DNA of 64,000 nt from Comamonadaceae bacterium. GTDB taxonomy: Bacteria > Pseudomonadota > Gammaproteobacteria > Burkholderiales > Burkholderiaceae_C. The translations under genes were made by a program, and so were the position numbers. Location of the stretch: contig CANFWH010000003.1 in the NCBI GenBank assembly GCA_947450645.1, forward strand, positions 62,001 through 126,000, in the 5' to 3' direction. The notes beneath the pieces were generated by a model that ran no database searches, was not told the origin of the DNA, and saw nothing but the letters and a program-made list of their open reading frames with translations. Numbering within the stretch: the first letter of the stretch is position 1; each line of letters opens with the position of its first letter. Of the stretch, positions 42,899-59,233 are shown one piece after another.

Positions 42899-43615
42899 CT
42901 ACCCGCCGAGGTACGCGGCTTGAACAGCAGGATCACCTTTGAGCTTATCGGCTGGGCCATGCACCGAGACACGCCCGTTCTCAAGCACGTAACCGTAGTC
43001 CGCGACGTTCAACGCCGCTGCCGCAAATTGCTCGACCAAGAGCATGGTCACTCCCTGCGCTTTGAGGCGACTAATGATGTTGAAGACTTCTTCGACAAGA
43101 ATAGGCGCTAGTCCCATGGATGGCTCGTCCAGCAAAAACACTTCAGGGTTCAACATGACGGCGCGTGCCATTGCCAGCATTTGCTGCTCGCCGCCAGAGA
43201 GCGTGCCTGCCAATTGATTGGTGCGCTCTTTCAAACGTGGAAACATCTCAATCGCTTTTTGCAAATCCGCTTCGACATCGCCTTTGGTGCGTGCACCCGT
43301 GTAACGTGCAAATGCGCCAAGGCGAATGTTGTCGAGCACTGACAGCGTTGGAAACACGCGACGGCCTTCTGGCGAGTGTGCGAGGCCGCGCTTGGCGATT
43401 TGGTACGACGCTTGCCCTGTAATGTCTTGCCCTGCAAGCGTAATGCTGCCTGCCGTCGGTTTGATCATGCCTGAAACCGCTCGCATCGTCGTGGTTTTAC
43501 CCGCGCCGTTCGAGCCGATTAAGGTGACGATTTTGCCCTTGGGCACGTCGATGGTCACGCCGTGCAGCACTTCGACTTTGCCATAGCCAGCATGTAGATT
43601 ATCAATTTTTAGCAT
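42899..43615 (-). CDS. livF: Branched-chain amino acid-type ABC transporter ATPase LivF (transporter 1)
   Basis: A 238-residue LivF-type ATPase with Walker A GSNGAGKTT, signature LSGGEQQMLAMARA, Walker B VFLLDEPSMGLAP and the VEQFAAAALNVADYGYVLENGRV end typical of LivF. The ATG at 43615 is preferred because a GGAG sequence lies 9 bp upstream; a GTG at 43630 would put that site inside the gene. It is the last gene of HAAT transporter 1, whose ligand may be an amino acid or an aromatic acid, as in several related soil bacteria. Confidence 0.94.
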   Translation of the reverse strand: MLKIDNLHAGYGKVEVLHGVTIDVPKGKIVTLIGSNGAGKTTTMRAVSGMIKPTAGSITLAGQDITGQASYQIAKRGLAHSPEGRRVFPTLSVLDNIRLGAFARYTGARTKGDVEADLQKAIEMFPRLKERTNQLAGTLSGGEQQMLAMARAVMLNPEVFLLDEPSMGLAPILVEEVFNIISRLKAQGVTMLLVEQFAAAALNVADYGYVLENGRVSVHGPADKLKGDPAVQAAYLGG

Positions 43616-43650
43616 GTTGTTTTTCTCCACTTGGGATTTGTGCTTTTTTA

Positions 43651-45600
43651 TTAGTGCGCAGTCGATCCGCTGCCGAGATAAGCCTCAATCACCGCAGGGT
43701 GGCTCTGCACTTCGGCAGGTTTGCCTTCGGCAATTTTTTGCCCAAAGTCGAGGACAGAGACCGTATCCGATACGCCCATCACCACGTCCATGTGGTGCTC
43801 AATCAAAATGACCGTAATGCCGTGATCGCGAATCTTTTTCACCATCGCCATCAGGTCAGGTAAATCAGCAGGTGGCAAGCCAGCAGCAGGCTCGTCAAGC
43901 AGCAAGAGCTGTGGACGCAAGCCCAGTGCACGTGCGATTTCTAAAAGGCGTTGCTTGCCATACGGCAGATTGCGCGCCTCATGCTCGGCCAGCTCTGAGA
44001 TGCCAACAAACGCCAGCAAACTAGCGCACTCAGCACGCGCGGCTGCGTCTTCGCGCTTGTAACGCGGCGTGTTAAAGATCACATCCAAGATATTGCTCTT
44101 GTAGGTGTGATGCAGTCCCACCAGCACGTTATCGGTAGCGGTCATTTCACCAAACAGCTGCACGTTTTGGAAAGTGCGTGCAATGCCCGAGAGCGCAATC
44201 GTCGATGGCGTTTGCCCCGTAATGACTTGTCCATTAAATGAGACGGTGCCAGCCGTTGGTTGATAAATACCGGTCAGCACATTCATCATCGTGCTCTTAC
44301 CCGAGCCGTTGGGGCCAATGAGCCCGTGTACTGATCCGTGCGAAACGTTCAAATCAACCAAGTTCAATGCTTTGAGGCCACCAAACTGCATGAGCGCTTG
44401 ATTAACTTCTAGCAAATTCGCACTGCCATTGTTAACAAGCGTAACTGGCGACCATGGCCGCACAGCCACAACACCAGCCGTGGCTTGCACGAGTGCCGTT
44501 TTGGCCGCGCTTTGCGCAGTAGCACGCGCAAACAGCTCACGCGCAAAGCCAACAACGCCGTCTTGCAGGTAGTAGACGACGAACAAAATCATGAAGCCAA
44601 AGATGGTCAAGCGCCAATCGGTAATGTTATCCAGCCAAAACGAAAACGCTGCCATACCCATCGTCGCGACGACAGGGATGGCCACTTCGCGTAGTGTTTT
44701 TACCTTCTTACTGAGGTTGTATGCTGCCATCGCCAAAACACCAATGGCAAGGGCGGTTGCAATTTTTTGGAAGAGTTCGATGTCCGACAAAAGGCTAGGC
44801 AACATCACCACGATGGCCGCGCCAATCAATGCACCGGAGCGTGTTTTGCGCCCACCCATGATGACGGCAAGCAAGAACAAAATGGTGAGCTCGAAGTTGT
44901 AGGTGTCAGGCGAAATATATTCAACAGAATAGGTTGAGAGAGCGCCTGCCAAACCTGCCAAAGCGGCACTAATGACGAAGGCGTACACCTTATAGCGATA
45001 AACCGAAACACCCATGCAATCACAAGCCACTGGGCTATCGCGCAGTGCTTCAAAGGCGCGTCCAAGATGCGATTTCAAAATTCGGTGCACGACGATTAAC
45101 GCCAAGGCCATCAAAACGAGCACGATATAAAAATACTCGACTTCGGTGATTTTGTGACCAAAGAAAGTTGGCTTAGGCACTTTGAGACCAATGGGGCCTT
45201 CGGTCAAGAAGGTCATTTCATTAATCAAGATTTTGATGATGGTGCCAAAAGCCAAAGTCACCATCGCCAGATAAGGACCCGTGACGCGCAGCGCTGGCAG
45301 CGCCAACACCGCGCCAAAAACTGCTGTCACAGCAATGGCAGCGGGAACAGTAACAAAAAATGGTAGCCCTAATTTAAAAAACAAGACGCCTGCTGTGTAA
45401 GCACCCACGCCAAAAAGCCCAGCATGACCCAGCGACACTTGGCCTGTATAGCCCACGACGATATCAAGACCAAATAGCAAGATCGTGTAGATCAAAATGG
45501 TTTCAATCAAATGGATGTAGTACGGGTTAGGCACCAAGGTCGGAAACAACGCCAAGGCAGCAATAGCTGCGATAGCAAAGTACAAAGATTTATTTTTCAT
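43651..45600 (-). CDS. Fused LivM permease-LivG ATPase (transporter 1)
   Basis: The 649-residue protein joins a LivM-type permease (residues 1 to about 320: GQVSLGHAGLFGVGAY, GPYLAMVTLAFGTI, RDSPVACDCMGVSVYRYK) and a LivG-type ATPase (from about residue 395: GPNGSGKST, NLPYGKQRLLEIARAL, LLLDEPAAGLPP, IEHHMDVVM). Between them lies an additional hydrophobic region of about 70 residues with two extra membrane-like stretches (VVATMGMAAFSFW and LTIFGFMILFVVYYL). The ATG at 45600 is chosen because the upstream extension is not hydrophobic and overlaps livH. Confidence 0.93.
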   Translation of the reverse strand: MKNKSLYFAIAAIAALALFPTLVPNPYYIHLIETILIYTILLFGLDIVVGYTGQVSLGHAGLFGVGAYTAGVLFFKLGLPFFVTVPAAIAVTAVFGAVLALPALRVTGPYLAMVTLAFGTIIKILINEMTFLTEGPIGLKVPKPTFFGHKITEVEYFYIVLVLMALALIVVHRILKSHLGRAFEALRDSPVACDCMGVSVYRYKVYAFVISAALAGLAGALSTYSVEYISPDTYNFELTILFLLAVIMGGRKTRSGALIGAAIVVMLPSLLSDIELFQKIATALAIGVLAMAAYNLSKKVKTLREVAIPVVATMGMAAFSFWLDNITDWRLTIFGFMILFVVYYLQDGVVGFARELFARATAQSAAKTALVQATAGVVAVRPWSPVTLVNNGSANLLEVNQALMQFGGLKALNLVDLNVSHGSVHGLIGPNGSGKSTMMNVLTGIYQPTAGTVSFNGQVITGQTPSTIALSGIARTFQNVQLFGEMTATDNVLVGLHHTYKSNILDVIFNTPRYKREDAAARAECASLLAFVGISELAEHEARNLPYGKQRLLEIARALGLRPQLLLLDEPAAGLPPADLPDLMAMVKKIRDHGITVILIEHHMDVVMGVSDTVSVLDFGQKIAEGKPAEVQSHPAVIEAYLGSGSTAH

Positions 45601-45604
45601 ATTT

Positions 45605-46495
45605 TTATACTTTCTTAATCGCCATCTTGCCAAACAAGCCCGCTGGTTTGACGGCAAGCACGAGTAAGAGCAGCACCAGTCCTGGCACATCTTTGTAGCC
45701 CGTGGAAATATAAAAACCTGTTGTGGTCTCTGCGATACCTAGGATCAAACCACCCACAATCACTCCGACGCCAGAAGTCAGCCCACCAATAATCGCGACC
45801 GCGAAAGCCTTAAGACCCAGCACCGAGCCCATGCTCGCACCCGTCAGCGTGAGAGGTGCAACCAGCACGCCCGCAACCGCAGCTGTCGCGGAGGACAGCG
45901 CATAAGAGAATGTAATCACAGCTCCCGTATTGATGCCCATCAATGACGCGGCATCGCGGTCATTGGACGTAGCAACAACGGCTTTGCCATAAATAGATTT
46001 ACGATTAAAAATTTCGACCAACAGCATCATGGCGAGTGCACCCACTACGACCACAATTTCCATTGGCAAAATGTTACCGCCTAAAAACTTGAGTGGTTCT
46101 TCAGATAAAGGAGACGGGAACTTCAAATCATCCTTGCCCCAAACGTTTTCAGCCACGTTTTTAAAAATAATTGCAAGCGCAATCGTGGACATGATCCAGC
46201 CAAACTCACTCTTGATTTTGATTGCGGGACGAACGCCAATCCACTCAACGATCGAGCCTTGCATCGCACCAAAAATAGCAACCAATGGAATCATCAACCA
46301 ATAGTTGAGATAAGGGCCTCCGTGAATCGTGCCTGCTAGCGATAAACCCACCAAAGATCCCAGCATCAGGGCTTCGCCCTGACCAAAGTTCAGTGTGCCC
46401 GATGTGGCAAACGTGAGCTGATAACCAAAGGCGATCACGCCGTAGATCATGCCCAGCGCGACACCGCTATAAATGAGTTGAAGAAAAATTTCCAT
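45605..46495 (-). CDS. livH: ABC transporter permease LivH (transporter 1)
   Basis: The 296-residue permease starts MEIFLQLIYSGVALGMIYGVIAFGYQLTF and has the GTLNFGQGEALMLG, SNDRDAASLMGINT, and VLGLKAFAVAIIGGLTSGVGVIVGG segments of LivH. About eight membrane segments are expected. The ATG at 46495 follows an AAGGG site at seven bases; an upstream start at 46516 would lie in the terminator between livK and livH. It pairs with the LivM half of the fusion protein 4 bp downstream. Confidence 0.94.
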   Translation of the reverse strand: MEIFLQLIYSGVALGMIYGVIAFGYQLTFATSGTLNFGQGEALMLGSLVGLSLAGTIHGGPYLNYWLMIPLVAIFGAMQGSIVEWIGVRPAIKIKSEFGWIMSTIALAIIFKNVAENVWGKDDLKFPSPLSEEPLKFLGGNILPMEIVVVVGALAMMLLVEIFNRKSIYGKAVVATSNDRDAASLMGINTGAVITFSYALSSATAAVAGVLVAPLTLTGASMGSVLGLKAFAVAIIGGLTSGVGVIVGGLILGIAETTTGFYISTGYKDVPGLVLLLLVLAVKPAGLFGKMAIKKV

Positions 46496-46517
46496 GGATG
46501 ACCCTTGCTCTTTCATT

Positions 46518-46550
46518 AAAAAAAGCCGACTCCAAGAAGTCGGCTTTTTT
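46518..46550 (-). terminator. Rho-independent terminator between livK and livH (transporter 1)
   Basis: AGCCGACT (46524-46531) pairs with AGTCGGCT (46538-46545) around a 6-nt loop, with an A tract at 46518-46523 and a T tract at 46546-46550, so it can act in both directions. For the minus-strand livK message it lies 16 bp beyond the stop codon and would lower livHMGF expression relative to the binding protein. Confidence 0.88.
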
Positions 46551-46565
46551 AGCTAACACGCCAAA

Positions 46566-47792
46566 TTATTTTTTCGCGTCTTTGGCTACAGGTTTCGCTG
46601 CGGCCTTGGTACGAACTTCGCTGCCTTTTTGCTTATCCGCATCATTGGCATAGACCACGACACCATCTTTCACCTTGCCAAACACAACCATGTTTGCCGT
46701 AATGGCTTCATGGTCAGCTTTAGAGAACGGATGATCGTACTTCGTCACAACGCCGTCAATCGGCGCTTGCAAATTTTCTAGAGCAGCCAAAATTTTAGGC
46801 CCGTCGGTGCTGTTTGCTTGCTTCATGGCAGCAGCTAGCAGCAATACCGAGTCATAGCCTTGAGCGGCAGATACTGGTGAAGGAATGCGCTTAACTTTGT
46901 AGGCTTTTTGGTAAGCATCAATAAAGCTTTTACGCTTAGGCGTATTAGGCTCTTGAATAAAGGTTTGCGGCATGATCGTGCCATCAGCGTTTTTGCCTGC
47001 GTTATCAATAAAGTTAGCCATCGACAAAGTCCAAGAACCTGTCATGGGCACTTTCCAGCCCAGCTTGACCATACCGTTTGCAATTTGAGCCAACTCAGGG
47101 CCAATGCCGTAAGTAATCACAATTTGCGCGCCTGCCTCTTTAGCTTTCAGCAATTGCGGTGTCATGTCCACGTCTTTGATGTTGTATTTTTCAATCGCAA
47201 CAGCCGTAATGCCTTTTTCTGCCAAGCGTTTTTCTAGGTCGGCACGCCCCAATTGTCCATAGTTGGTCGCATCAGCTAGGATCGCAACCTTGGTCAATTT
47301 GAGATTGCCAACGACCTGCTCCACGATCAGGGAAGATTGAATCGTGTCGTTAGCAGAATTACGGAAAACATAATTTTCAGGTTGATCGGCAAACTGCTTG
47401 GTAATCGGCGTAGCAGTTGCCACGTTGTTCATCACAGGAATTTTGGCTTCCTGATAAAAACGTTGCGATGCCAAAGACACGCCAGAGTTAATGTAGCCTA
47501 GCGTTGCAACCACTTTTTCTTTATTAATCAATTCTTGTGAAACCTGAACGCCGCGCTCGTTAGAAGCCTCGTCATCACGCTCAATCAATTGAATCTTGCG
47601 ACCCATAATGCCACCTTTGGCATTGATCTCCGCCACTGCCAATTTAGCACCATCACGCATCGACACACCCATAGGGCTAGAGCCGCCAGTCAGCGGACCT
47701 TGCAAACCAATTTTGATATCGTCGGCCGCAAAAGTGAGCGTTGCGATGGCCATGGCGATAGAGCCGAGAGCCAGTTTATGAATCAGTTTCAT
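46566..47792 (-). CDS. livK: ABC transporter substrate-binding protein LivK-like (transporter 1)
   Basis: The 408-residue precursor has a signal peptide ending TFA (about residue 22) and the periplasmic-binding-protein type I fold: IKIGLQGPLTGGSSPMGVSMRDGAKLAV, INAKGGIMGRKIQLIERDDEA, and GYDSVLLLAAAMKQ. It delivers the solute to LivH/M. The C-terminal 15 residues (KAAAKPVAKDAKK) form an Ala/Lys-rich tail like the one on DctP. A CGGAGA Shine-Dalgarno precedes the ATG. Its own transcription unit is bounded by hairpins on both sides. Confidence 0.94.
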   Translation of the reverse strand: MKLIHKLALGSIAMAIATLTFAADDIKIGLQGPLTGGSSPMGVSMRDGAKLAVAEINAKGGIMGRKIQLIERDDEASNERGVQVSQELINKEKVVATLGYINSGVSLASQRFYQEAKIPVMNNVATATPITKQFADQPENYVFRNSANDTIQSSLIVEQVVGNLKLTKVAILADATNYGQLGRADLEKRLAEKGITAVAIEKYNIKDVDMTPQLLKAKEAGAQIVITYGIGPELAQIANGMVKLGWKVPMTGSWTLSMANFIDNAGKNADGTIMPQTFIQEPNTPKRKSFIDAYQKAYKVKRIPSPVSAAQGYDSVLLLAAAMKQANSTDGPKILAALENLQAPIDGVVTKYDHPFSKADHEAITANMVVFGKVKDGVVVYANDADKQKGSEVRTKAAAKPVAKDAKK

Positions 47793-47932: not shown

Positions 47933-48613
47933 TTAATTTTTTGATGCCGTCTGCACTTTATCGCCCGAGCCTTCAAGTCCTGCCAAGAGCGCTTTGCTAT
48001 TGCCTGGAATTACCATTTGGAAGCGGTTATCGACATAGGTGTAATCGTAGTAACCCATACGCGCGAGTGGCTTGATTTTGAGCACATCAATCATGCCTTC
48101 GCCATCAATCACTGAGTCATCAATATGGATGGCAACAACGCGACCAAACACCACATCGGCCGTGCCCATTGGCGGTTTGCCTGGAAAGCGCAGCGTGTTC
48201 AAGTACACACACTCAAATTGAATCGGCGAGCCCTTTACTCGCATGGGTTTGACCAAGCGACTCGGCAGTTTTTCTAAACCCGCACGCTCGAACTCATCAA
48301 CACCCAACGGCAGTTCCTCGCCAGAAATGTTGACTGCATCGCGCAAATCGTAGGTCGCCATATTCCACACAAACTCTCCTGTGGCTTCCGCGTTTTGCAC
48401 CGAGTCTTTGCGCTCGCCACCCGTGTCTTGATTGGCACTAAACATCACAATGGGCGGATCAAACGTCACGTTTTGAAATTGACTATACGGCGCTAAGTTG
48501 TGCCGCCCGTCTTTGCCCACGGTCGATATCCAACCAATCGGGCGCGGAATCACGCAAGACTTAAAAGGGTCGCGCGGCAAGCCATGCGGTGTTACGCCTG
48601 GTTCGTAATACAT
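47933..48613 (-). CDS. Flavin reductase family protein
   Basis: This 226-residue FMN-binding split-barrel protein has the family motifs CVIPRPIGWISTVGKDGRHNLAPYSQF, DPPIVMFSANQ, DSVQNAEATGEFVWNMAT and GTADVVFGRVVAIH. Relatives supply reduced flavin to partner monooxygenases or act as oxidoreductases. No two-component monooxygenase is encoded beside it, so its partner is unclear. It lies 5 bp after the feruloyl esterase stop at the end of the presumed hydroxycinnamate operon. Confidence 0.9.
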   Translation of the reverse strand: MYYEPGVTPHGLPRDPFKSCVIPRPIGWISTVGKDGRHNLAPYSQFQNVTFDPPIVMFSANQDTGGERKDSVQNAEATGEFVWNMATYDLRDAVNISGEELPLGVDEFERAGLEKLPSRLVKPMRVKGSPIQFECVYLNTLRFPGKPPMGTADVVFGRVVAIHIDDSVIDGEGMIDVLKIKPLARMGYYDYTYVDNRFQMVIPGNSKALLAGLEGSGDKVQTASKN

Positions 48614-48618
48614 GGTGA

Positions 48619-50322
48619 TTATTGACAGCTAAAACTAGCCGCGTCTTCCACGTTGCCCGAGCCGTTGTACTTCGCCGTCTTGGGATACGCACATAGCGGA
48701 CGCGTGCGATTCGCGCTCCAATCTTTGGGCACTTCCGCATTCACACTGCCTGCGTTACCTGCGCCGCGCGCTGTTGCCACCACGCTCTCAGGTGCAATGC
48801 CTTGCTCGACCCATTTCACTAACGGAGTCAGCATATCGAATTGATCGGCCGCAGGACCACCACTGCAGTGATTCATGCCTGGCACGGGGAAGAAGCGGAC
48901 AAAGTTGAATGCCGAACCACCTTGCGCAGTATTGACGCGCTCCACCCATTGCCGTGTGTCTTCCTCTGAAAAGATCGGATCGCTCACGCCGTGATACAGC
49001 ATGACTTTTGCACCACGCGCTTTGAGTGCTGCTAAGTTAACTGGGTTATCGTTTTGCGGCGGCGTCATTAAGTTCAAACCTGAAACTTTATACGTATCGT
49101 TGGTAGCGTTAAAAAATGCCAACCGTTCACTCGGGTTCGTCGTCATGGGATTGGCTGGTGTTGGCGGTACGCTGAAGACCGTGCCAACAGCAAGAGGATC
49201 TAGCGCTAATGAAAACGCAAACTTCCAACGTGCCCAGTCGCTTCCTGCCACGCCAATGTCGTGCGGGAAGTTGCGATAAATTGCACCGCCATCCGCAAGT
49301 TTGCCGCCAGCAAAGACGTTCGCCACCACCTGCTTTTGCGCAGTAGTAAGACAACTGCCTCCTGATTCACGTTTATCAGCGGCACATGCAGGCACGTCGC
49401 GCATCACGTCAAATGCCGCTTGGCATGCTTGCGTTGCCATCACCATACCATCTTTTGCACCATCGAGTGCATCGCATTTAGCGAGAACAGCATTTGCAAC
49501 TGTCTGGCGCTCTTGCGCCGTGAAGCCCGTATTTAAATCCGCAATGCGCGGCGCTTGTGGACTGAGTGGATGCGGTGCGGTTGCGCCAGCGGTTGCAAGC
49601 GTTGACCATTGCTGCGCGCCCCACAACTGAGCGAGCGCTGCGTTCGGGAGTCGATAGCCTGGAGCACCCGCCAAATAGCCGTCGTATTGATCGCCCAAAC
49701 GAGACATCGCCACCATCGTATGCCGCCCGCCATTAGAGCAACCGCCGATGTAACTGCGATCGGGGCCTTTGCCGTAAGCCGCGCCAATCAAGGCTTTGGC
49801 CATAGGTGTGAGTTTTTCTACCGCTTGATAACCGTAGTCGAGACGCGCTTGCGGCTCTAACCCAAACGCACCATTTTGCGCGCCCGTGTGGCCTGCGTCT
49901 GAGCTAATTACCGCAAAGCCTTGTGCAAGTGCGCCCGTGAGTGGTCCACCGCCAAGGGCTCCTAGCGCAGGCTGCACCACGCCATCTAAGCCACCATTGC
50001 CTTGATAGAAAAAGCGGCCATTCCAAGCAACAGGTAAACGCATTTCAAAACCAATCGCATAGTTTTGACCGTCTGCGCCTTTGCGTTTAAACATTTGCCC
50101 TTTGATAAGGCAATAAGCCCCCGCAGAGGCCACAGAATCAATGCTCGTGTTATCAAATTTGAAGCTGCTTGCCAGCGCCTCACATTGCCCCAGAGCCTTA
50201 CCCACTGCGGGCTGCAGCTGGACGGGTTTGTCGCTACCAGCCATGTTGGCGCAGCCTAAAAAGCCAAACAGAAAAACCGCACTGGCGGTTCCTGTCAATG
50301 AGTACCTCAGTACGGTTTTCAT
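48619..50322 (-). CDS. Tannase/feruloyl esterase family lipoprotein
   Basis: The 567-residue alpha/beta hydrolase of the tannase/feruloyl esterase family hydrolyses ester bonds of hydroxycinnamic or gallic acid. The signal ends in FLFGFLGC, a lipobox with Cys near residue 24, so it should be a lipoprotein on the periplasmic or outer face. The nucleophile Ser is in GGCSNGGRHT and the catalytic His in PGMNHCSGG; each is next to a Cys that pairs in the family CS-D-HC signature. The Asp lies in LYHGVSDPIFS. A CDALDGAKDGMV loop looks like the family calcium site. It is followed by the flavin reductase and preceded by a Bug gene. Confidence 0.93.
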   Translation of the reverse strand: MKTVLRYSLTGTASAVFLFGFLGCANMAGSDKPVQLQPAVGKALGQCEALASSFKFDNTSIDSVASAGAYCLIKGQMFKRKGADGQNYAIGFEMRLPVAWNGRFFYQGNGGLDGVVQPALGALGGGPLTGALAQGFAVISSDAGHTGAQNGAFGLEPQARLDYGYQAVEKLTPMAKALIGAAYGKGPDRSYIGGCSNGGRHTMVAMSRLGDQYDGYLAGAPGYRLPNAALAQLWGAQQWSTLATAGATAPHPLSPQAPRIADLNTGFTAQERQTVANAVLAKCDALDGAKDGMVMATQACQAAFDVMRDVPACAADKRESGGSCLTTAQKQVVANVFAGGKLADGGAIYRNFPHDIGVAGSDWARWKFAFSLALDPLAVGTVFSVPPTPANPMTTNPSERLAFFNATNDTYKVSGLNLMTPPQNDNPVNLAALKARGAKVMLYHGVSDPIFSEEDTRQWVERVNTAQGGSAFNFVRFFPVPGMNHCSGGPAADQFDMLTPLVKWVEQGIAPESVVATARGAGNAGSVNAEVPKDWSANRTRPLCAYPKTAKYNGSGNVEDAASFSCQ

Positions 50323-50345
50323 AGATACGTCTCCCTTTATTTGAA

Positions 50346-51326
50346 TTACGAGTCTGCTTTAAAGCCCGTGATTTGAACCATCTTGCCAGCAACGGCTGTG
50401 TCTGCCTTGATTTGCTCTGCCAATTGCTGCGGCGTACTAGAGACCACTTCCATCGCGAACTGCTTCACGCTCTCAGCCACATCAGGTTGCGCGAGCGCCA
50501 CTTTAAAGATCGCCGCGGCCTTCTCACGTTGCACCATCGTCGCTTTGCCAGGCAAAAAGAAGCCAAACCACTCGCGAAACACGAGGTCTGGGAATCCTTG
50601 CTCTTTGTACGTTGGAACATTAGGCGCAAATGGTGATCGGGCGGCACCCGACATCGCCAAAAGGCGCAGTTTCCCAGTTGCCACGTGCGGTAAATAGTCA
50701 CCCAGCGGTGATGACATTGCCGAAATCTGCCCACCCAGCAATTGCGCAATACCAGGACCAGAACCTTGGAATGGAATGTTATTGAGCGGTGCCCCAGAAA
50801 GTTTTGCCAGCGTCGCCGACAGCATATGCGGCATAGAGCCCGCACCTGGATTACCCACACTTGCCTTATCTGGATTGGCCTTAGCCCATACGATAAAGTC
50901 CTTGAGTGTCTTCACGCTTTCGGGCACAGCAGGACCCACGCCAAAGCCATGCGGCATATAAATGCCTGTTGACACGGATGCCACATCATCCACTTTGTAC
51001 CCGAGCTTGGCAAAAGTGTGTGGAAATAAAATCAGCATTGACGCTGGCGTAAACAAATACACCGTGCCATCTGCTGGCGAATCCTTCATATTCAAAATGC
51101 CAAATTGACCACCCGCACCTGGTTTGTTATCGACGACAACCGCCGTGCCAAGTGTGCCTGTCACTTTTTGCGCAATACGACGTGCAAACGTATCGGTTGG
51201 ACCACCAGGTGGAAAGCCCACCACGATGCGCACTTGATCGGGTATGGCCTGCGCAAAGGCTTGTGGAGTAAGGGCTGCAACAATGGCCGCACTCACGCTT
51301 GCTTGGGTAAATAAACGACGATCCAT
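50346..51326 (-). CDS. Bug-type (TctC family) periplasmic solute-binding protein
   Basis: The 326-residue precursor starts MDRRLFTQASVSAAIV, with twin Arg suggesting Tat or Sec export and cleavage after AFA (about residue 25). Bug motifs are IRVVVGFPPGGPTDTFARRI-like VRIVVGFPPGGPTDT, VVVDNKPGAGGQFG, and NIPFQGSGPGIAQLLGGQI. The ATG at 51326 has an AGGAG site eight bases upstream; the 14-residue extension at 51368 lacks support. It sits between livF (transporter 2) and the feruloyl esterase gene, so its ligand is likely an aromatic acid or ester of this operon. No TctA/B genes are near. Confidence 0.92.
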   Translation of the reverse strand: MDRRLFTQASVSAAIVAALTPQAFAQAIPDQVRIVVGFPPGGPTDTFARRIAQKVTGTLGTAVVVDNKPGAGGQFGILNMKDSPADGTVYLFTPASMLILFPHTFAKLGYKVDDVASVSTGIYMPHGFGVGPAVPESVKTLKDFIVWAKANPDKASVGNPGAGSMPHMLSATLAKLSGAPLNNIPFQGSGPGIAQLLGGQISAMSSPLGDYLPHVATGKLRLLAMSGAARSPFAPNVPTYKEQGFPDLVFREWFGFFLPGKATMVQREKAAAIFKVALAQPDVAESVKQFAMEVVSSTPQQLAEQIKADTAVAGKMVQITGFKADS

Positions 51327-51351
51327 AAAAAAATTTCTCCTAATAAAATTT

Positions 51352-52083
51352 TTATTTCTTTGCGGCACCTAAGTAGGTGTCAATCACCCGTGAATCCGAA
51401 GCCAATTCTTTCGCTTTGCCTTGCAAAACCACTTCGCCCATTTCAATCACATAGCCATAATCCGCCACCTCCAATGCAGCGCGTGCATTTTGCTCAACCA
51501 GCAGCGTTGTCACGCCTGTTGAACGTAATGCAGAAATGATTTGAAAAATTTCCTTCACGATCAACGGCGCCAGTCCAAGACTTGGTTCGTCCAGCATCAG
51601 AAGCTTGGGGCGTGACATCAAAGCCCGTCCCACCGCCAACATTTGGCGCTCGCCACCAGACAGCGTGCCTGCAATTTGTAATCGGCGCTCTTTAAGCCGA
51701 GGGAAAATTGCGAAGACATCATCCATATGCTCACGCCACTGCGGGGTTCTTAAACGCTGCTGACGAAAGCCTCCGAGTAACAAGTTGTCTTCAACGGTCA
51801 TGGTGCCAAAGAGCTCCCGCTTTTCCGGCACCAGTGCCACGCCCAGCATCACACGATGCTCCAGCGATAGCGATTCAATAGATTCACCTTGAAAGGCCAC
51901 TTTCCCTTTAATTGGCAAGATACCCATCAAGCTATTAAGTAGTGTCGATTTGCCAGCACCATTGGGACCAATGACGGTCACGATGCTGCCTTCTTGCGCT
52001 TGCAAATCAATACCATGCAAAACCTCCGCTTTGCCGTAACCTGCGCAAAGTGCGTGTACCTCAAGAATGGAATTTGAGTTCAA
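51352..52083 (-). CDS. livF: Branched-chain amino acid-type ABC transporter ATPase LivF (transporter 2)
   Basis: The 243-residue ATPase has Walker A GPNGAGKSTLLN, LSGGERQMLAVGRALMSR, LLMLDEPSLGLAP and VEQNARAALEVADYGYVIEMGEV. The only suitable start is TTG at 52083, which overlaps the upstream stop as TTGA and has AGGAG seven bases before it, so TTG initiation is well supported. It is part of a second full HAAT transporter with genes 52080-56044, embedded in the operon with the feruloyl-CoA-synthase-like and esterase genes. Confidence 0.93.
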   Translation of the reverse strand: MNSNSILEVHALCAGYGKAEVLHGIDLQAQEGSIVTVIGPNGAGKSTLLNSLMGILPIKGKVAFQGESIESLSLEHRVMLGVALVPEKRELFGTMTVEDNLLLGGFRQQRLRTPQWREHMDDVFAIFPRLKERRLQIAGTLSGGERQMLAVGRALMSRPKLLMLDEPSLGLAPLIVKEIFQIISALRSTGVTTLLVEQNARAALEVADYGYVIEMGEVVLQGKAKELASDSRVIDTYLGAAKK

Positions 52084-53852
52084 TGCTCAACTCCTAAATA
52101 AGCCGCTCGCACGGCTGGACTTTGCTGCACTTCGCTAGGATTACCTTGCATGAGCAGCGTACCGAACTCCATCACCACCAAGTGATCGCAAACATCCATC
52201 ACCATATCCATGTCATGCTCGACTAATAAGATGCTTAAGCCCTCGCTTTGTAGTTGGCGCAAGACACTCACCAAAGCTTGCTTTTCTTTGTGCCGCAGGC
52301 CTGCGGCGGGTTCATCCAACAAGAGTAGCGCAGGGTCTAAACAAAGTGCCCTTGCAATCTCTAAAAGTCGCTGAGGACCCATGGGTAAATTACCCGCCAA
52401 TTCGTGCAGCATAGAACCCATGCCCACGCGCTCTAATTGACGCCTTGCTTCCTGAAAAAGCATGGCCTCTTCTTCCTTATCCAATCCCAGCATGGCGGAC
52501 ATGCTTCCCTTGTGCCCACGGATATGCGCACCTAGTGCCACATTTTCTAGAACCGTCATATCAGCAATCATTTTGACGTGCTGAAAAGTGCGGGAGATCC
52601 CGCGTCCCGCAATATCTCGTGCCAGTAAATGCTGTATCTCTTGTCCTCTAAACCGCACCGTGCCACTGGTCGTGGGCAAGACGTTCGTAATTAAATTAAA
52701 GGTCGTCGATTTACCTGCGCCGTTAGGGCCGATCAAGCCGACGATTTGCCCCGCTTTAATGTCAAAGCTAATGTCATTCACAGCCACCAAGCCGCCAAAC
52801 TCTTTTCGGATGGAAGATACTTCTAAGATCAAATCATCAGTTCGATGCTTACTTTTCTCTGGTAGCGATGCTGATTGCGCGGAGCCCTCTGTTGGAAAAA
52901 CCCGTTTTGAACGCGGCAAGAAGCGCTCCACCAATTGCCACAAACCATCGGGTAGGAATTTGAGCATCACAACTAAAACGACGCCAAAAACAATCACTTC
53001 ATAGCTACCACTTGTACCAATTAACTTGGGAAGCAATACTTGTAGTTGATCGTCTAACACCTTGGTGATGCCAGCACCCACGATAGCGCCGCCGATATAG
53101 CCCACGCCACCCACCACCGTCATAAATAAATACTCAATACCCATCTTCAAACCAAAGGCGGATGGATTCACGCTGTGCTGATAGTGCGCAAGCAACCAAC
53201 CCGAAACCGAGGCCAATTCAGCCGCAATGACAAAGGCAATCAACTTGTAGCGAAAGCTGCTAATGCCCATAGCCTCCGCCATTTGCGTGCCATTTTTAAT
53301 GGCTCGCATTGCGCGTCCTGTCCGTGAATTAAGCAAACGAGTCAAAGCCAAGGCACTCAATAAAACAATGGCCCAAGTAAAGACGAAAAATCCTCGGCCT
53401 GCCCCAACATTCCAAGAAAATAGTTGCAAACCTGGTACCGCTAGCAGTCCGTCATACTTACCCAGCGTCTCTAAATTTCCCATCAAAAAATAAAGCGCTA
53501 AACCCCAAGCAATGGTTGCTAATGGCAAATAGTGTCCCGACATGCGAAGCGTAATAAAAGCCAAAATGACCGCGCTAACCGTCGTAATAGATAAACCTAA
53601 CAACAAGCCCATCCAAGGGGACAGACCTGTATTCAAGGTCAGCCATGCCGAGGCGTAGGCACCAATGCCCACAAAAGCAGCTTGGCCAAACGACGTGAGT
53701 CCCATCACGCCCGTTAGCAGTACCAAACCCATGCAAGGCAAGGCATACAGGCCAATCGTAATGAATTGACTAATCCAAAAGTCCGGAACAGGCAGCACGG
53801 CCAACAACAGCACAATCAAAGGCATAGCTAGAGCGAAGCCAAACTTTTTCAT
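52080..53852 (-). CDS. Fused LivM permease-LivG ATPase (transporter 2)
   Basis: The 590-residue fusion joins a LivM-type permease (residues 1 to about 320: GVMGLTSFGQAAFVGIGAYASAW, KNGTQMAEAMGISSFRYK) and a LivG-type ATPase (from about residue 345: GPNGAGKSTT, LPMGPQRLLEIARALCLD, LLLDEPAAGL, VEHDMDMVM). The charged linker (SKRVFPTEGSAQSASLPEKS) is simpler than that of transporter 1 and lacks extra membrane stretches. The ATG at 53852 leaves a 1-bp gap from the livH stop; the upstream extension is not membrane-like. Confidence 0.93.
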   Translation of the reverse strand: MKKFGFALAMPLIVLLLAVLPVPDFWISQFITIGLYALPCMGLVLLTGVMGLTSFGQAAFVGIGAYASAWLTLNTGLSPWMGLLLGLSITTVSAVILAFITLRMSGHYLPLATIAWGLALYFLMGNLETLGKYDGLLAVPGLQLFSWNVGAGRGFFVFTWAIVLLSALALTRLLNSRTGRAMRAIKNGTQMAEAMGISSFRYKLIAFVIAAELASVSGWLLAHYQHSVNPSAFGLKMGIEYLFMTVVGGVGYIGGAIVGAGITKVLDDQLQVLLPKLIGTSGSYEVIVFGVVLVVMLKFLPDGLWQLVERFLPRSKRVFPTEGSAQSASLPEKSKHRTDDLILEVSSIRKEFGGLVAVNDISFDIKAGQIVGLIGPNGAGKSTTFNLITNVLPTTSGTVRFRGQEIQHLLARDIAGRGISRTFQHVKMIADMTVLENVALGAHIRGHKGSMSAMLGLDKEEEAMLFQEARRQLERVGMGSMLHELAGNLPMGPQRLLEIARALCLDPALLLLDEPAAGLRHKEKQALVSVLRQLQSEGLSILLVEHDMDMVMDVCDHLVVMEFGTLLMQGNPSEVQQSPAVRAAYLGVEH

Positions 53853-53853
53853 G

Positions 53854-54894
53854 TCAATGCTCCTCACCCGAATGCGGTGACCGCAAGGAACGATAGAGCA
53901 GCACTGGCAGCACAATCGTAAAGACGATGACCTCTTTAAAGCTGCTTGCCCAAAACGAACCAAACGACTCTGTCACGCCCACAAACAATGCGCCAGCAAG
54001 TGCACCAGAATAGCTGGACAAGCCCCCGATGACGGCGGCCACAAAGCCTTTCAGGCCAATTAAAAAGCCTGAGTCATAAAACATAGTGGTCGTCGGACCT
54101 ATGAGCAAACCCGACAAAACGCCAATCAAAGCCGCCATGGCAAAACAAAGCTGTCCCGCTGATTGCGATGAAATTCCCATGAGGCGAGCGCCCAAACGAT
54201 TCACCGCCGTTGCACGTAGCGCTTTGCCATAAAGACTGCGCTCAAAGAAGAGCCCAAGCAAAACAATCAGCGCCGTAGAGACGGCACCAATAATGATGGT
54301 TTGCCCACTCAAAGTAACGGCGCCTAGATTCAAACGTAGATCCCAGAACGAAGGATTACGAAAACCTTCTGCCCCAAAAAATAACAGTCCCAAACCCGTC
54401 ATGGCGAAATGCACACCGACTGACACAATCAATAAAACCAAAGAGCTCGCATCCGCCAACGACTGATAAGCCACGCGGTAAACCAAAGGGCCATAAGCCG
54501 TCACAACAGCCACGGCCAAAAGTGCCTGCAATGCTAGCGGTAACTGCATGGGTGCAGCAAACATCGTCACAAGCGCAATGCCAATGGGCATCCATAAAGT
54601 CCGCAATCCCGCCTTCAATACTGAAAGCACATCATGCTGATGCCGCCACGCCGCCGCCATATCCATCAGAGCCGCTACGCCCGCCAAAATCATGAGCAAC
54701 CAGACCGTTCCTGGTACTTTGCCTGTTTGCAAAATGGCAAGCGTCAACGCGCCGTAGGCAACAAACTCGCCTTGCGGTATAAAAATAACGCGCGTCACGG
54801 TAAAGACCAAGACGATGGCTATGCCTAAGAGGGCATAGACAGCGCCATTGGTCACACCGTCCAGCAGCAAAATGTTGGCGATTGAAAAATCCAT
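53854..54894 (-). CDS. livH: ABC transporter permease LivH (transporter 2)
   Basis: The 346-residue permease begins [29 protein letters not shown] and has [17 protein letters not shown] (here PQGE where LivH often has NFGQG) and [18 protein letters not shown]. The [27 protein letters not shown] block is LivH-like. It is about 50 residues longer than LivH of transporter 1 because of an insertion near residues 75-110 ([21 protein letters not shown]). It is co-transcribed with the fusion gene 1 bp away. Confidence 0.92.
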
Positions 54895-54913
54895 GTGCAG
54901 GCTTCAGCTAGGT

Positions 54914-56044
54914 TTATTCGACTTTGAACTCACCATTGACGACTTTTAGCATCACGCCTGTTTCATTGGTGTAACCCCAGTGGTCAGCCTTCGTCCAGTT
55001 CATCACACCGTGCGCCAAAATGGTACGTCCCATGCCTTCCATTGCATCCTTCAGGGCTGCACGAAATTCTTTGGTTCCAGGTTTTGCTTTTTTCAGTGCG
55101 ACGGGCAAAATCTTCTCTAGCACCAATTGCGAGTCATAAGCATGACCTGCAAACTGATTCCGATTACCTGCGCCGTAAGCAGCTTCATATTTTTTAACAA
55201 AATCAATCGCTACCTTCTTAGAAGGATGGCTGTCAGGCAACTGCTCGGCTATGACAGCAGGACCCGAGGAAACAAAAGTTCCTTCCACAGATTTGCCGCC
55301 CACGCGCATCAAATCTTTGGTGGCTGCGGCGTGCGTTTGATAAATTTTCCCTTTGAAATTACGATCCACAATACCCATTTCTGGCATCGCCGCGCCACTA
55401 CCAGACGCCACCACGAGCATCGCATCAGGATTAGCCGCGACAAGCTTGAGGGCTTGCGGCGTTACGCTGGTATCTGAACGTGCAAAGCGCTCCACGGCAA
55501 TGACTTTAATGCCTGCTTTTTCTGCAATAGGCGTAAATTCTTTTAACCAACCTTCGCCATAAGCATCGCTGTAACCTAAGAATCCAACGGTTTTAACGTT
55601 ATGTGCCACCATGTGCTGCACCATGGCATGGGCCATCACGCCATTGGACTGCGGCAAGCGAAACACCCAGCCATCTTTGCCAGGCGGCAAACCCACAGGA
55701 GACATCGCTAACTGAACGGTGCCAGCTTCGGTCGCAATGTCCGACATGGCTGCGGCAACAGGCGTAATGCAAGAGCCCATGATCATGTCTACATGATCTT
55801 CGGAGATAAACCGCCGCGCGTTTTGTGCGCCTTTGCCAGGATCGCTGGCATCATCCAAAAGAATCAGATTGATTTTTTCACCTGCAATCGTTTTCGGGAA
55901 AAGTTTATAGTAATTTTGCATCGGAATGCCAAGGCCAGAGCCGGGTCCCGTCAACGCCAAACTAATGCCAATGTTCACGTCGGCCATAGCGGCAGAGCAA
56001 GACAGTACAGCTGCGACAGCAACCACTTTGCGAATAAATTTCAT
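54914..56044 (-). CDS. ABC transporter substrate-binding protein (transporter 2)
   Basis: The 376-residue precursor has a signal peptide ending AMA (about residue 21), then VNIGISLALTGPGSGLGIPMQN, LILLDDASDPGKGAQNARR, GFLGYSDAYGEGWLKEF and AGHAYDSQLVLEKIL. These are type I periplasmic-binding-protein features like those of LivK and of aromatic-acid binding homologues. It is preceded by a TCCTAG-reverse (CTAGGA) Shine-Dalgarno-like site. It sits between the ligase and livH genes, so a hydroxycinnamate-type ligand is likely but unproven. Confidence 0.93.
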   Translation of the reverse strand: MKFIRKVVAVAAVLSCSAAMADVNIGISLALTGPGSGLGIPMQNYYKLFPKTIAGEKINLILLDDASDPGKGAQNARRFISEDHVDMIMGSCITPVAAAMSDIATEAGTVQLAMSPVGLPPGKDGWVFRLPQSNGVMAHAMVQHMVAHNVKTVGFLGYSDAYGEGWLKEFTPIAEKAGIKVIAVERFARSDTSVTPQALKLVAANPDAMLVVASGSGAAMPEMGIVDRNFKGKIYQTHAAATKDLMRVGGKSVEGTFVSSGPAVIAEQLPDSHPSKKVAIDFVKKYEAAYGAGNRNQFAGHAYDSQLVLEKILPVALKKAKPGTKEFRAALKDAMEGMGRTILAHGVMNWTKADHWGYTNETGVMLKVVNGEFKVE

Positions 56045-56088
56045 AAAAATCTCCTAGGTTTGTTGTAAAAAGTGAAGGGGGAATCGGA

Positions 56089-57870
56089 TTACAGCGGCTT
56101 GATGATCTCTAGCGCCGTGTCATTATGTAATGCCTCAACTAAAGCCGCTCTATGGGTTAACACTGATCTTTGATTGATCGACCCCTTATCGGTGATCTCA
56201 CCCTTATCAATCGATGGCAACTCTTCAAGCACAAGCATCCGAGCTACACGACTGGCACTGCCCGTCGAAGTTTTAGCCAGCTCGTTCATCATGTTTTGAA
56301 AGTGAGCCTGTAACGTTGCCTTATCAAGCGCTCTTGCCGCAGGCAATGGAAAAATCATTGCGCCCACTTCTTTCATGTTGAGACCTGTAATCACCGCGTC
56401 TTGCACATAGGGCGCGCCCGCCGCAATGATCTTGGCGCGCATGGGACCTACGCTGACAAACGTACCTGTCGCCAGCTTGAAATCTTCCGCAATTCGACCA
56501 TCGAATTTGAGGCCTTGATGGATGTCCGTATCGTTAATCCACTTCACTGCATCACCCGTGCAAAAGTAACCTTCGTCATCAAATGACTCTTTCGTGGCCT
56601 CGAGATTTTTCCAGTAACCTGGCGTAATGTTGTCACCCTTATAGCGAACCTCCACCTTGCCATTGTTTGGCACAAGTTTAAGAGTGAGACCTGCTGTAGG
56701 CAGACCCAAATAGCCAGCCTTCACGTCCTTGTTTGTAACAAACAGCGCAAAGGGCGAAGACTCCGTCATACCCAGCCCTGTGGTCATCACAATGCGCTCG
56801 CCAATCTCGCGCTCTTGGCTTTCAAACAGGCTATCCCAAATCGGCTGCGCCAAAGCTGCACCTGCATAGAAAAACATCTGCACACGGCTGAGTAATGTCT
56901 TGCGCAGCAGATCATCTTTTTTCATCGCGTCGGCAATGTATTCAAAGCCCGTGGGCACATTCAAATAAATCGTTGGAGAAATTTCGCGCAAATTGCGCAG
57001 CGTCTCACCAATCAAGGCGGGCGTGGGTTTGCCCTCGTCAATATAGAGCGTGCCACCGTTGTACATGAGAAGACCAAAGTTGTGATTGCCCGCAAAGGTG
57101 TGATTCCACGGCAGCCAATCCACCAGCGTGTGCCACCCTTCAGCAAGCGCTGGCATGGAAGTTCGCATTTGCTCTTGGTTGGCGCACCACATGCGCTGCG
57201 TGTTAATCACCGCTTTAGGCAATTTAGTCGAGCCACTGGTAAATAAAAACTTCACGATGGTGTCGCCGTTTGTCGCCTGCATCGCCGCCTCCACCGCATC
57301 GGTAGCAGGCGTTGCGAGTAGCTCGGCAAAACCATCGTCGGCGTAAATGACTTTCACATCCTTGCCAACCACCGTATCAACCGCACGTCCATAGCGCTCT
57401 TTGTTGGCGGCAAACACAAGACCTGGCGTGAGAGTTTGCAGCACATGACGCAACTTTTCAAAATCTTGGCTAATCACGCTATACGCGCTGGAGACCGAGC
57501 AATACGGTACGCCTGCGTAGATGCAACCGAGGATAAGCTGCGCGTGCTCAAGGTCGTTATCCGACAAAATTGCCACAGGATGATCGGCTGACAAGCCAAG
57601 CTGGATAAGGCCTTGCGCAATGCTGCGTGCGCCAGCTAGCGCATCACCCCAAAGCAAATGTCGCCACTCGCCCTTGGTTCCATCCGCATTTTTGACGCGC
57701 TGCGCCATGAAGGTTTTTGTCGGATGCGCTTTTGCAAAATGCACAAAGCGATCCGTGATGCGCTCGGCATAGTTACCTAGCGGCACAGAACGCAGATATT
57801 GCACGCCGCCCTCGCCAGCCGTGACTTCACCGCTAGTTACGCCAAATTTAAATTCACGGTACTTAGACAT
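56089..57870 (-). CDS. Feruloyl-CoA synthase-like acyl-CoA ligase
   Basis: The 593-residue adenylate-forming ligase has LFTSGSTKLPKAVINT (motif with TSGST-K), WLPWNHTFAGNHNFG, MTTGLGMTESSPFALF and YFCTGDAVKW (GD). DGRIAEDFKLATGTFVSVG contains the hinge and KLATGTFVS. The DFKL-TGT-V wording is characteristic of feruloyl-CoA synthases, which make feruloyl-, caffeoyl- or coumaroyl-CoA. I start at ATG 57870; a TTG two codons upstream is unlikely. It begins 2 bp after the crotonase stop and starts the ring-side-chain route with that gene. Confidence 0.9.
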   Translation of the reverse strand: MSKYREFKFGVTSGEVTAGEGGVQYLRSVPLGNYAERITDRFVHFAKAHPTKTFMAQRVKNADGTKGEWRHLLWGDALAGARSIAQGLIQLGLSADHPVAILSDNDLEHAQLILGCIYAGVPYCSVSSAYSVISQDFEKLRHVLQTLTPGLVFAANKERYGRAVDTVVGKDVKVIYADDGFAELLATPATDAVEAAMQATNGDTIVKFLFTSGSTKLPKAVINTQRMWCANQEQMRTSMPALAEGWHTLVDWLPWNHTFAGNHNFGLLMYNGGTLYIDEGKPTPALIGETLRNLREISPTIYLNVPTGFEYIADAMKKDDLLRKTLLSRVQMFFYAGAALAQPIWDSLFESQEREIGERIVMTTGLGMTESSPFALFVTNKDVKAGYLGLPTAGLTLKLVPNNGKVEVRYKGDNITPGYWKNLEATKESFDDEGYFCTGDAVKWINDTDIHQGLKFDGRIAEDFKLATGTFVSVGPMRAKIIAAGAPYVQDAVITGLNMKEVGAMIFPLPAARALDKATLQAHFQNMMNELAKTSTGSASRVARMLVLEELPSIDKGEITDKGSINQRSVLTHRAALVEALHNDTALEIIKPL

Positions 57871-57872
57871 AT

Positions 57873-58670
57873 TCAAGCTTTCACTTTGTCTTTGCCATGC
57901 TCTAAAAACGCTTTGATGCGCGCTTTGGCCTCGGGTGCAGACTGCGCGACCGATGCCAGCAAGGCCTCGGTAAAGAAGCCGTGATCCGCTGGCTGCTCGG
58001 CTATGCGCGGCAAGCCGTGCATCAAGGCGTAATTGGTCATGGGTTCGTTTTGAGCAATGCGCTTGGCCAACTCAATCGCTTTGTTGAGTGCGCCTTTTTT
58101 GTCAGCGCCTGCGGATTCAAAATACTGTGCAAAGCCAAGCTGGGCGCACTCTGCGCCCTTATAGACACGACCTGTGAGCATCATGTCCATCATGCGGTGC
58201 GCGCCAATCAGCTTAGGCACGCGCACCGAGCCGCCACCGCCGACAAAAATGCCGCGCGAGCCTTCGGGCAGGGCATAAAACGTCGTCTCGTCCATCACGC
58301 GGATGTGGCACGAAGTTGCGAGTTCCAGTCCGCCGCCCACCACCGCGCCATGCAGCGCGGCAATCACGGGGATACGGCCAAACTCGATATTGGTCAAGAT
58401 GCGATGCCACGACCGCGAATGATGCACACCTTGCACCGCATCGCGCTCTTTAATCTCAGACAAATCAAGCCCCGCACAAAAATGATCACCTTCGCCGTCA
58501 ATCACGGCGGCCTTCACGCTGCTTGGCAAATTTTCAAACGCATGCTCGAGCGCCGCCATGAGCCCATCGGATAGTGCATTGCGCTTTTTTCCGCGCATGA
58601 GGCGCACGATGGCGATGTCATCTTGAATATCAACAGAGATTTCGGAAAGCGATGGAACAACTGAACTCAT
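57873..58670 (-). CDS. Crotonase/enoyl-CoA hydratase family protein
   Basis: A 265-residue crotonase with oxyanion-hole motifs FCAGLDLSEIKERDA and HGAVVGGGLELATSC, and the active-site region YALPEGSRGIFVGGGGSVRVPKLIG with one likely catalytic Glu. It heads the operon with a feruloyl-CoA-synthase-like ligase, so the likely role is hydration (and perhaps retro-aldol cleavage) of hydroxycinnamoyl-CoA. The wording differs from the classical Ech/Fcs hydratase-lyase, and a beta-oxidative route is possible. It is divergent from the MarR gene and faces operator 1 at 58696-58720. Confidence 0.9.
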   Translation of the reverse strand: MSSVVPSLSEISVDIQDDIAIVRLMRGKKRNALSDGLMAALEHAFENLPSSVKAAVIDGEGDHFCAGLDLSEIKERDAVQGVHHSRSWHRILTNIEFGRIPVIAALHGAVVGGGLELATSCHIRVMDETTFYALPEGSRGIFVGGGGSVRVPKLIGAHRMMDMMLTGRVYKGAECAQLGFAQYFESAGADKKGALNKAIELAKRIAQNEPMTNYALMHGLPRIAEQPADHGFFTEALLASVAQSAPEAKARIKAFLEHGKDKVKA

Positions 58671-58695
58671 GAGGGACTCATTTCAAAAATAAAAC

Positions 58696-58720
58696 ATTTG
58701 ATTAGTTACTTTAATCAAAT
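58696..58720. promoter_or_regulatory. Operator-like inverted repeat 1 of the MarR region
   Basis: ATTTGATTA-N7-TAATCAAAT is a perfect 9-bp dyad of 25 bp, 25 bp upstream of the crotonase ATG. Its half-site TAATCAAAT recurs at 58789-58797. Size and symmetry fit a MarR dimer site. Confidence 0.7.
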
Positions 58721-58772
58721 ATCATCGCCTTTAACCTAGTATTTACCCTATAAACACATGCATTTAAATTCA

Positions 58773-58797
58773 TAATAATTAGTAAAACTAATCAAAT
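58773..58797. promoter_or_regulatory. Operator-like inverted repeat 2 of the MarR region
   Basis: The right half TAATCAAAT (58789-58797) is identical to that of repeat 1, with the same spacing to a degenerate left half (five of nine positions). Within it ATTAGT-AAA-ACTAAT (58778-58792) is a perfect dyad. It ends 13 bp before the marR ATG at 58811, so it could mediate autorepression. Confidence 0.6.
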
Positions 58798-58810
58798 TAG
58801 GAAAATAACC

Positions 58811-59233
58811 ATGAGTCTCAACCGCATTATTGGCTATCAGCTGGTGCAAGCAGGCATCGTGACAGGTGCTAACTTTATGCACGGGGTGGGCAAGCCCTAC
58901 AAGCTGCGCCCTGTCGAGTTCACCATCTTGCAGCTCATCCGCGAGACACCGCACATTAGCCCGACAACGCTAGCCAAGACATTGGCAATGACAACGCCCA
59001 GCATGACGGCGTGGTTAGATAAACTGTCCAAGAGAAAACTGCTCATGCGCGAAAAAAGTGTCAGTGATGGGCGTGGTCAAAAACTGGCGCTCACCGCTTC
59101 GGGCAGCGCTTTGGTAGAAAAAGCACTCGCAGATTTACTTGAATCGGAAGCCATGCTACTGGCGCATCTCAGCCTAGGCGAGCGTGAAATGTTGCTGGAG
59201 ATTTTGCAAAAAATAACGGCTGAAAAAACTTAA
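58811..59233 (+). CDS. MarR family transcriptional regulator
   Basis: The 140-residue protein has the winged helix-turn-helix of MarR: FTILQLIRETPHISPTTLAKTLAMTTPSMTAWLDKLSKRKLLMREKSVSDGRGQKLALTAS, shown here in parts LAKTLAMTTPSM and SDGRGQKLALTASG. It is divergent from the crotonase/ligase operon, the usual place for the MarR-type repressors of hydroxycinnamate genes that respond to the CoA thioester. Two operator-like repeats share a half-site in the 140-bp space. It is followed by a convergent gene 10 bp away. Confidence 0.92.
   Translation: MSLNRIIGYQLVQAGIVTGANFMHGVGKPYKLRPVEFTILQLIRETPHISPTTLAKTLAMTTPSMTAWLDKLSKRKLLMREKSVSDGRGQKLALTASGSALVEKALADLLESEAMLLAHLSLGEREMLLEILQKITAEKT

Follow-up and report, generated by a model that had tools for sequence, protein, structure and literature searches.

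The short DNA segment between a marR gene and a divergently oriented ech gene raises the question of whether the repeats it carries are binding sites for the encoded MarR protein and, if so, whether these sites serve the two genes separately or act in concert. The marR gene (58811..59233, + strand) codes for a 140-aa MarR-family regulator, the presumed binder of both sites described below, whose winged-helix MarR domain is recognized by PF01047 with 43.8 bits versus a cut-off of 24.6. Its neighbour ech (57873..58670, - strand) codes for a crotonase-family enoyl-CoA hydratase (NCBIfam PRK08150, above the cut-off) and is the first gene of a presumed operon. The 140 bp of intergenic DNA between them have a GC content of 25%, versus 52% for the window, a term used here for the entire 64,000-nucleotide stretch of DNA that was analysed. 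Matches to promoter consensus sequences in the window numbered two, versus 0.9 in shuffles, which is the level of chance, and none was found on the ech strand, such that no promoter could be assigned.

With a probability that we put at about 75%, this region carries two operators of the adjacent, autoregulated MarR repressor, which would act independently of each other and be released by an aromatic acyl-CoA. We infer the binding, the repression, the autoregulation, the nature of the ligand and the independence of the sites alike, and the evidence for and against this reading is described below.

Two candidate operators with a shared half-site

Site 1 (58696..58720) is a perfect 25-bp dyad, ATTTGATTA-GTTACTT-TAATCAAAT, exactly as an earlier sequence-only reading had described it, and is a predicted operator whose centre is located approximately 37 bp from the ech start codon. 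It is the sole perfect dyad with 9-bp arms and a 7-bp spacer in the window, and the pattern ATTTGATTA-N7-TAATCAAAT is unique in the 2.47 Mb genome when up to two mismatches are tolerated. Allowing three mismatches adds three further 25-mer matches, all of which fall within stop-to-stop frames of at least 150 codons. A genome search of this kind had been proposed in the sequence-only reading, and the many unrelated copies of the dyad that it named as counter-evidence were not encountered.

Site 2 (58773..58797; TAATAATTAGTAAAACTAATCAAAT) is an imperfect predicted operator whose centre lies 26 bp from the marR start codon and, in agreement with the earlier reading, 77 bp from the centre of site 1. 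The claim that this second site has the same half in the same geometry holds for its right half, which is identical to TAATCAAAT, but fails for its left arm, TAATAATTA, which matches ATTTGATTA at only five of nine positions, such that no 25-bp dyad is formed. The same mismatched arm explains why site 2 is missed by the 25-mer search even at three mismatches. At its centre is a shorter dyad, ATTAGT-AAA-ACTAAT (58778..58792), to which, as to sites 1 and 2, no strand is assigned. Judged from sequence, the better common unit for both sites is an 11-bp half-site, ATTTGATTAGT, arranged around a 3-bp centre. Site 1 matches this unit at 11/11 positions on the left and 9/11 on the right, and site 2 at 7/11 on the left and 11/11 on the right. 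The spacing between half-sites is approximately one turn of the helix in each case.

When the genome was searched for the 23-bp form of this arrangement, with 10-bp half-sites and up to three mismatches, exactly sites 1 and 2 were recovered, and a reversed control gave none. No enrichment was seen for the exact 13-bp core of site 2, which occurs at two places in the genome versus nine for the reversed control; its one other copy is inside a stop-to-stop frame of at least 150 codons. Across the full range of the regulon search (the 25-mer and the 23-bp form at up to three mismatches each, and the exact 13-bp core), the places found besides sites 1 and 2 total four, all within stop-to-stop frames of at least 150 codons, and no further site was located outside open frames that would indicate a wider regulon in this genome.

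How often would such repeats be expected in DNA of this composition? When the 140-bp stretch was shuffled by dinucleotides 500 times, a perfect dyad with 9-bp arms and a spacer of 0-11 bp appeared in 15 of the shuffled sequences, which is a point in favour of the view that the sites are accidental dyads in AT-rich intergenic DNA. Moreover, nine of 60 shuffles contained two 25-mers whose similarity equalled or exceeded that of sites 1 and 2 (17/25). Thus, the evidence on which the sequence-only reading was founded lends little weight to site 1, and the likeness between the sites does not reach significance. Because these single-sequence statistics are modest, the case for operators rests on conservation and on a family-wide search. 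The frequency of similar 25-mer pairs in shuffles, together with the mismatched left arm of site 2 and the fact that its 13-bp core is not rare, would also be accommodated if site 1 were the only MarR operator and site 2 were a conserved promoter or another AT-rich element with partial likeness to it. We judged this single-operator arrangement to be unlikely, given that the left half of site 1 and the right half of site 2 are reverse complements of each other at 11/11 positions, and given the conservation of site 2 described next.

Conservation of the sites and their link to a MarR clade

Relatives of marR and ech are present in all five genomes of the genus, including the genome under study. 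Divergent marR/ech genes with both sites readable between them occur in these five genomes (weakly in G029) and in two genomes of another genus, G113 and G209. When the window is aligned with the three closest species, 21 of the 25 columns of site 1 and 20 of the 25 columns of site 2 are invariant. Together the sites retain 41 of 50 bases, versus 8 of 80 for the other intergenic DNA outside a conserved middle block (columns treated as independent); for the individual flanks and the spacers that remain, the figures are 2/25, 2/18, 4/24 and 0/13. The inner 13 bp of the site 2 core (58779-58791) are invariant throughout (13/13) in the four species, and the core TTAGT-N3-ACTAA is retained in G113 and G209, both of which argue against the proposal that site 2 is not an operator. 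Even across all seven loci, 11/25 positions of site 1, 9/25 of site 2 and 6/10 of the middle block are kept, versus 0/80 of the rest.

Some loci reflect the pattern imperfectly, a point against the two-operator reading. The left arm of site 1 is damaged in G155, and in G029, whose MarR protein is 58% identical to that of the window, the dyad of site 1 is weak and site 2 differs greatly; a search for the 25-bp pattern at one mismatch gave no match in either genome. Both arms of site 1 in G113 carry a symmetrical change at the fifth base (G to C and C to G), and the pair therefore is still complementary. The same pair is kept with other bases in G029 and is broken in G209. Both the MarR protein and the intergenic region (L075:11225-11366) have diverged in G029, where an 8-mer of site 1, GTGAATTA, recurs in inverted orientation in site 2, a hint that regulator and operator may have changed together.

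The core of site 2 in both G113 and G209 is positioned between TTGACT and AATAAT or AACAAT, which are 17 bp apart. This location suits autorepression of marR.

A second line of evidence comes from the distribution of the dyad. The 25-bp pattern, with one mismatch or fewer, was found in four of 399 family genomes (the genome under study, G200, G201 and G143), where it is always exact and in every case located upstream of a marR gene of this clade. G143 belongs to another genus (L088:7598-9957), and there the exact dyad lies 185 bp before a marR gene whose product has 47% identity to that of the window. Around this dyad, marR is divergent from a tannase-family gene that is 56% identical to the one in the window. 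The presence of the exact dyad before marR in another genus, and the contrast between conserved sites and unconserved flanks, run counter to an accidental origin of the sites, and we therefore regard chance as effectively ruled out.

In an order-wide sample of 399 genomes (12 from the family, the genome under study included), one-mismatch matches to the pattern were present in five others. Within approximately 1.5 kb of these matches, no convincing relative of marR, ech or the tannase-family gene was found in any of the five, and the best MarR-like similarity had an E value of 0.063.

We also applied a held-out test in which a motif was built from the sites of the genus and of G113 only, with identical sister-species sites entered once and the sites of G029 left out. 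This motif was scored on 27 upstream regions of the clade (L009-L034 and L040) against 200 column-permuted motifs; the regions of the window, G155, G029 and G113 (L005-L008), as well as further weaker matches, were left out. Eleven of the 27 held-out regions reached the top 5%, meaning that no more than 10 of the 200 permuted motifs did as well, and for the strongest six this number was no more than two. The motif had no support in 16 of the 27, and one of the 11 supporting regions, L019, has a negative score.

Within the fetched flanks of the same 27 loci, tannase-family genes are neighbours at 14, ech or acs genes at three, and neither at 10. Among 26 ech loci in other genera (L047-L072), a MarR relative at E <=0.01 was absent from every fetched flank. 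A plasmid search returned 92 records, all with less than 60% identity, the best of the matches listed being 46%. Overall, conservation and the tie to a MarR clade favour what the sequence-only reading had proposed, namely that the two sites are predicted operators of the adjacent MarR protein, with one beside each of the divergently transcribed genes.

The gene run behind site 1 and the candidate ligand

The presumed operon (47933..58670, - strand) consists of nine genes, from ech to a flavin reductase gene, that overlap or are separated by gaps of no more than 44 bp and thus are expected to be co-transcribed. In order, ech is followed by acs, by genes for a periplasmic binding protein and a permease-like frame, by a long frame that includes a LivG-like ATPase part, and by genes for a LivF-like ATPase, a TctC-type protein, a tannase-family protein and the flavin reductase. 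The permease-like frame (53854-54894, - strand) is assigned by place and look, given that it had no NCBIfam match at 1e-20. The acs gene (56089..57876, - strand) codes for an acyl-CoA synthetase that is PRK12582-like, although its score of 646 bits falls short of the cut-off of 777; among PDB entries it is closest to a 4-coumarate:CoA ligase (63 bits). For ech, the best PDB match is 3hin, and among the matches listed none was named as a hydroxycinnamoyl-CoA hydratase/lyase. The tannase/feruloyl-esterase-family hydrolase (48619..50322, - strand; Pfam PF07519) has MHETase and then feruloyl esterases as its best PDB matches.

On the basis of the synthetase, hydratase and tannase-family matches, the gene run is likely to represent a pathway for aromatic acyl-CoA compounds that is supplied by an esterase, with the substrate deduced from these similarities. 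Such a gene set probably enables the bacterium to utilize phenolic compounds of the plant type. Past the end of the run, after a gap of 140 bp, is another ABC transporter set of the branched-chain type, the second in this region (binding protein, permeases and ATPases; 42899-47792).

Known MarR proteins offer several points of comparison. Among 38 PDB sequences, the second-best match to the window regulator is a CouR protein (PDB 6c28; E 5.8e-13), presumably that of Rhodopseudomonas palustris, although at 52.5 bits the relationship is distant. The best NCBIfam match is the Saro_0803 family (NF053777), at 62.4 bits versus a cut-off of 200, and the regulator is not assigned to that family. The HcaR operon of Acinetobacter baylyi ADP1 includes a chlorogenate esterase. 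According to the published descriptions of this regulator, HcaR represses hydroxycinnamate genes that include a CoA ligase and a hydratase, and its inducers are CoA thioesters (PMC5487221, PMC10458429); in the window, the regulator is likewise tied to a gene set of this composition. CouR and FerC, which are relatives within the MarR family, are reported to be released by hydroxycinnamoyl-CoA (PMC4737184, PMC5487221). A trait of this hydroxycinnamoyl-CoA-responsive group (CouR, FerC and HcaR) is that synthetase and hydratase genes adjoin the marR gene, as do acs and ech here if their presumed substrate is correct.

CouR of Rhodococcus jostii RHA1, as described, resembles the window system in being a MarR repressor encoded beside hydroxycinnamate-type genes, in the divergent arrangement of regulator and catabolic genes, and in its inverted-repeat operator, whose AT-rich half-sites are separated by approximately one helical turn (PMC4737184). 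In that account, however, a single repeat with the box cATTGA-N5-TCAATg serves the divergent couN/couR promoters (PMC4737184), whereas in the window there are two distinct sites, and the half, ATTTGATTA(GT), is longer. The CouR box ATTGA-N5-TCAAT is absent from both 25-bp sites. Saro_0803 of Novosphingobium aromaticivorans is described as binding a 22-bp A/T-rich operator with the repeat GCAATA-N6-TATTGC and as targeting the gene for a stilbene-cleaving enzyme (PMC10046596); an A/T-rich operator is common to both systems, whereas this repeat and this target are specific to Saro_0803. An inverted-repeat operator near the regulator's own gene is a trait of the MarR family, and one that the conserved sites 1 and 2 are predicted to share. 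In a literature search for MarR proteins with tannase and feruloyl esterase, none of the matches listed concerned such regulation by title.

Based on the neighbouring genes and these precedents, hydroxycinnamoyl-CoA is a plausible ligand. Regardless, MarR could instead respond to a different aromatic acyl-CoA or acid, because no listed match of ech was named as a hydroxycinnamoyl-CoA hydratase/lyase and because the esterase is most similar, among PDB entries, to MHETase.

Site spacing, looping and the proposed mechanism

Between sites 1 and 2 is a third conserved block, GTATTTACCC (58739..58748, no strand assigned), that is invariant at all 10 positions in the four species. It is located 18 bp from site 1 in six of the seven loci and 14 bp from it in G029. 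Neither a promoter nor a known site could be matched to this block, and in the genome under study its sister-species form, which has one base more than that of the window, gave two one-mismatch matches, the same number as the reversed control. The block may help to fix the spacing of the sites. A more elaborate proposal is that site 1, GTATTTACCC (mostly 18 bp away) and site 2 (approximately 78 bp away) form one module on which two MarR dimers and a second protein would cooperate, possibly through a short loop, but we consider this doubtful.

The centres of the two sites are separated by 77 bp in the window and by 79, 79, 79, 76 (G029), 78 and 78 bp in the other six loci, while the distances to the start codons vary more (31-44 and 18-41 bp). 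This fairly constant spacing fits looping and a fixed promoter geometry alike, and the seven loci represent few independent lineages, with the register of site 2 in G029, where the spacing is 76 bp, having been set by hand. If MarR dimers on both sites touched and closed a loop of approximately 78 bp, both promoters would be repressed together. The spacing of 76-79 bp corresponds to 6.9-7.2 turns at approximately 11 bp per turn, the helical repeat reported in vivo for bacterial looping constructs (PMC8501960), whereas at 10.5 bp per turn it corresponds to 7.2-7.5 turns. The earlier estimate of about seven helical turns is therefore correct for the former value but not for the latter. Furthermore, MarR proteins are described as homodimers that place two recognition helices on one palindrome in consecutive major grooves (PMC5487221), and a narrow literature search uncovered no case of looping by a MarR protein at a divergent promoter. 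Given this description and the dependence of the phase on the number of base pairs per turn, the suggestion of repression by looping is unsupported, and we view a loop as improbable.

We therefore return to a local, CouR-like repressor with one operator for each divergent transcription unit as the best reading of these sequences. One MarR dimer on site 1 would repress the ech-acs-transporter-esterase operon, and one on site 2 would repress marR itself. The synthetase encoded by the operon would make an aromatic acyl-CoA, most likely a hydroxycinnamoyl-CoA, that frees MarR from both sites, which would work mainly independently, each at its own promoter. Because two related and conserved sites lie between the repressor gene and the gene set, it is very likely that the repressor switches off both itself and the genes for phenolics. 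This would be a usual kind of bacterial switch, in which the predicted binding sequence is new for one MarR clade; the clade itself is not claimed to be new.

Genome comparison thus yields a predicted operator for a MarR clade whose genes often adjoin tannase-family esterases (14/27) or aromatic acyl-CoA genes (3/27). If the layout of two sites with constant spacing is functional, it would differ from the single shared operator described for the divergent promoters of CouR and HucR (PMC4737184, PMC5487221). The operator sequence also defines a local regulon that is open to testing and offers a candidate sensor part for aromatic acids.
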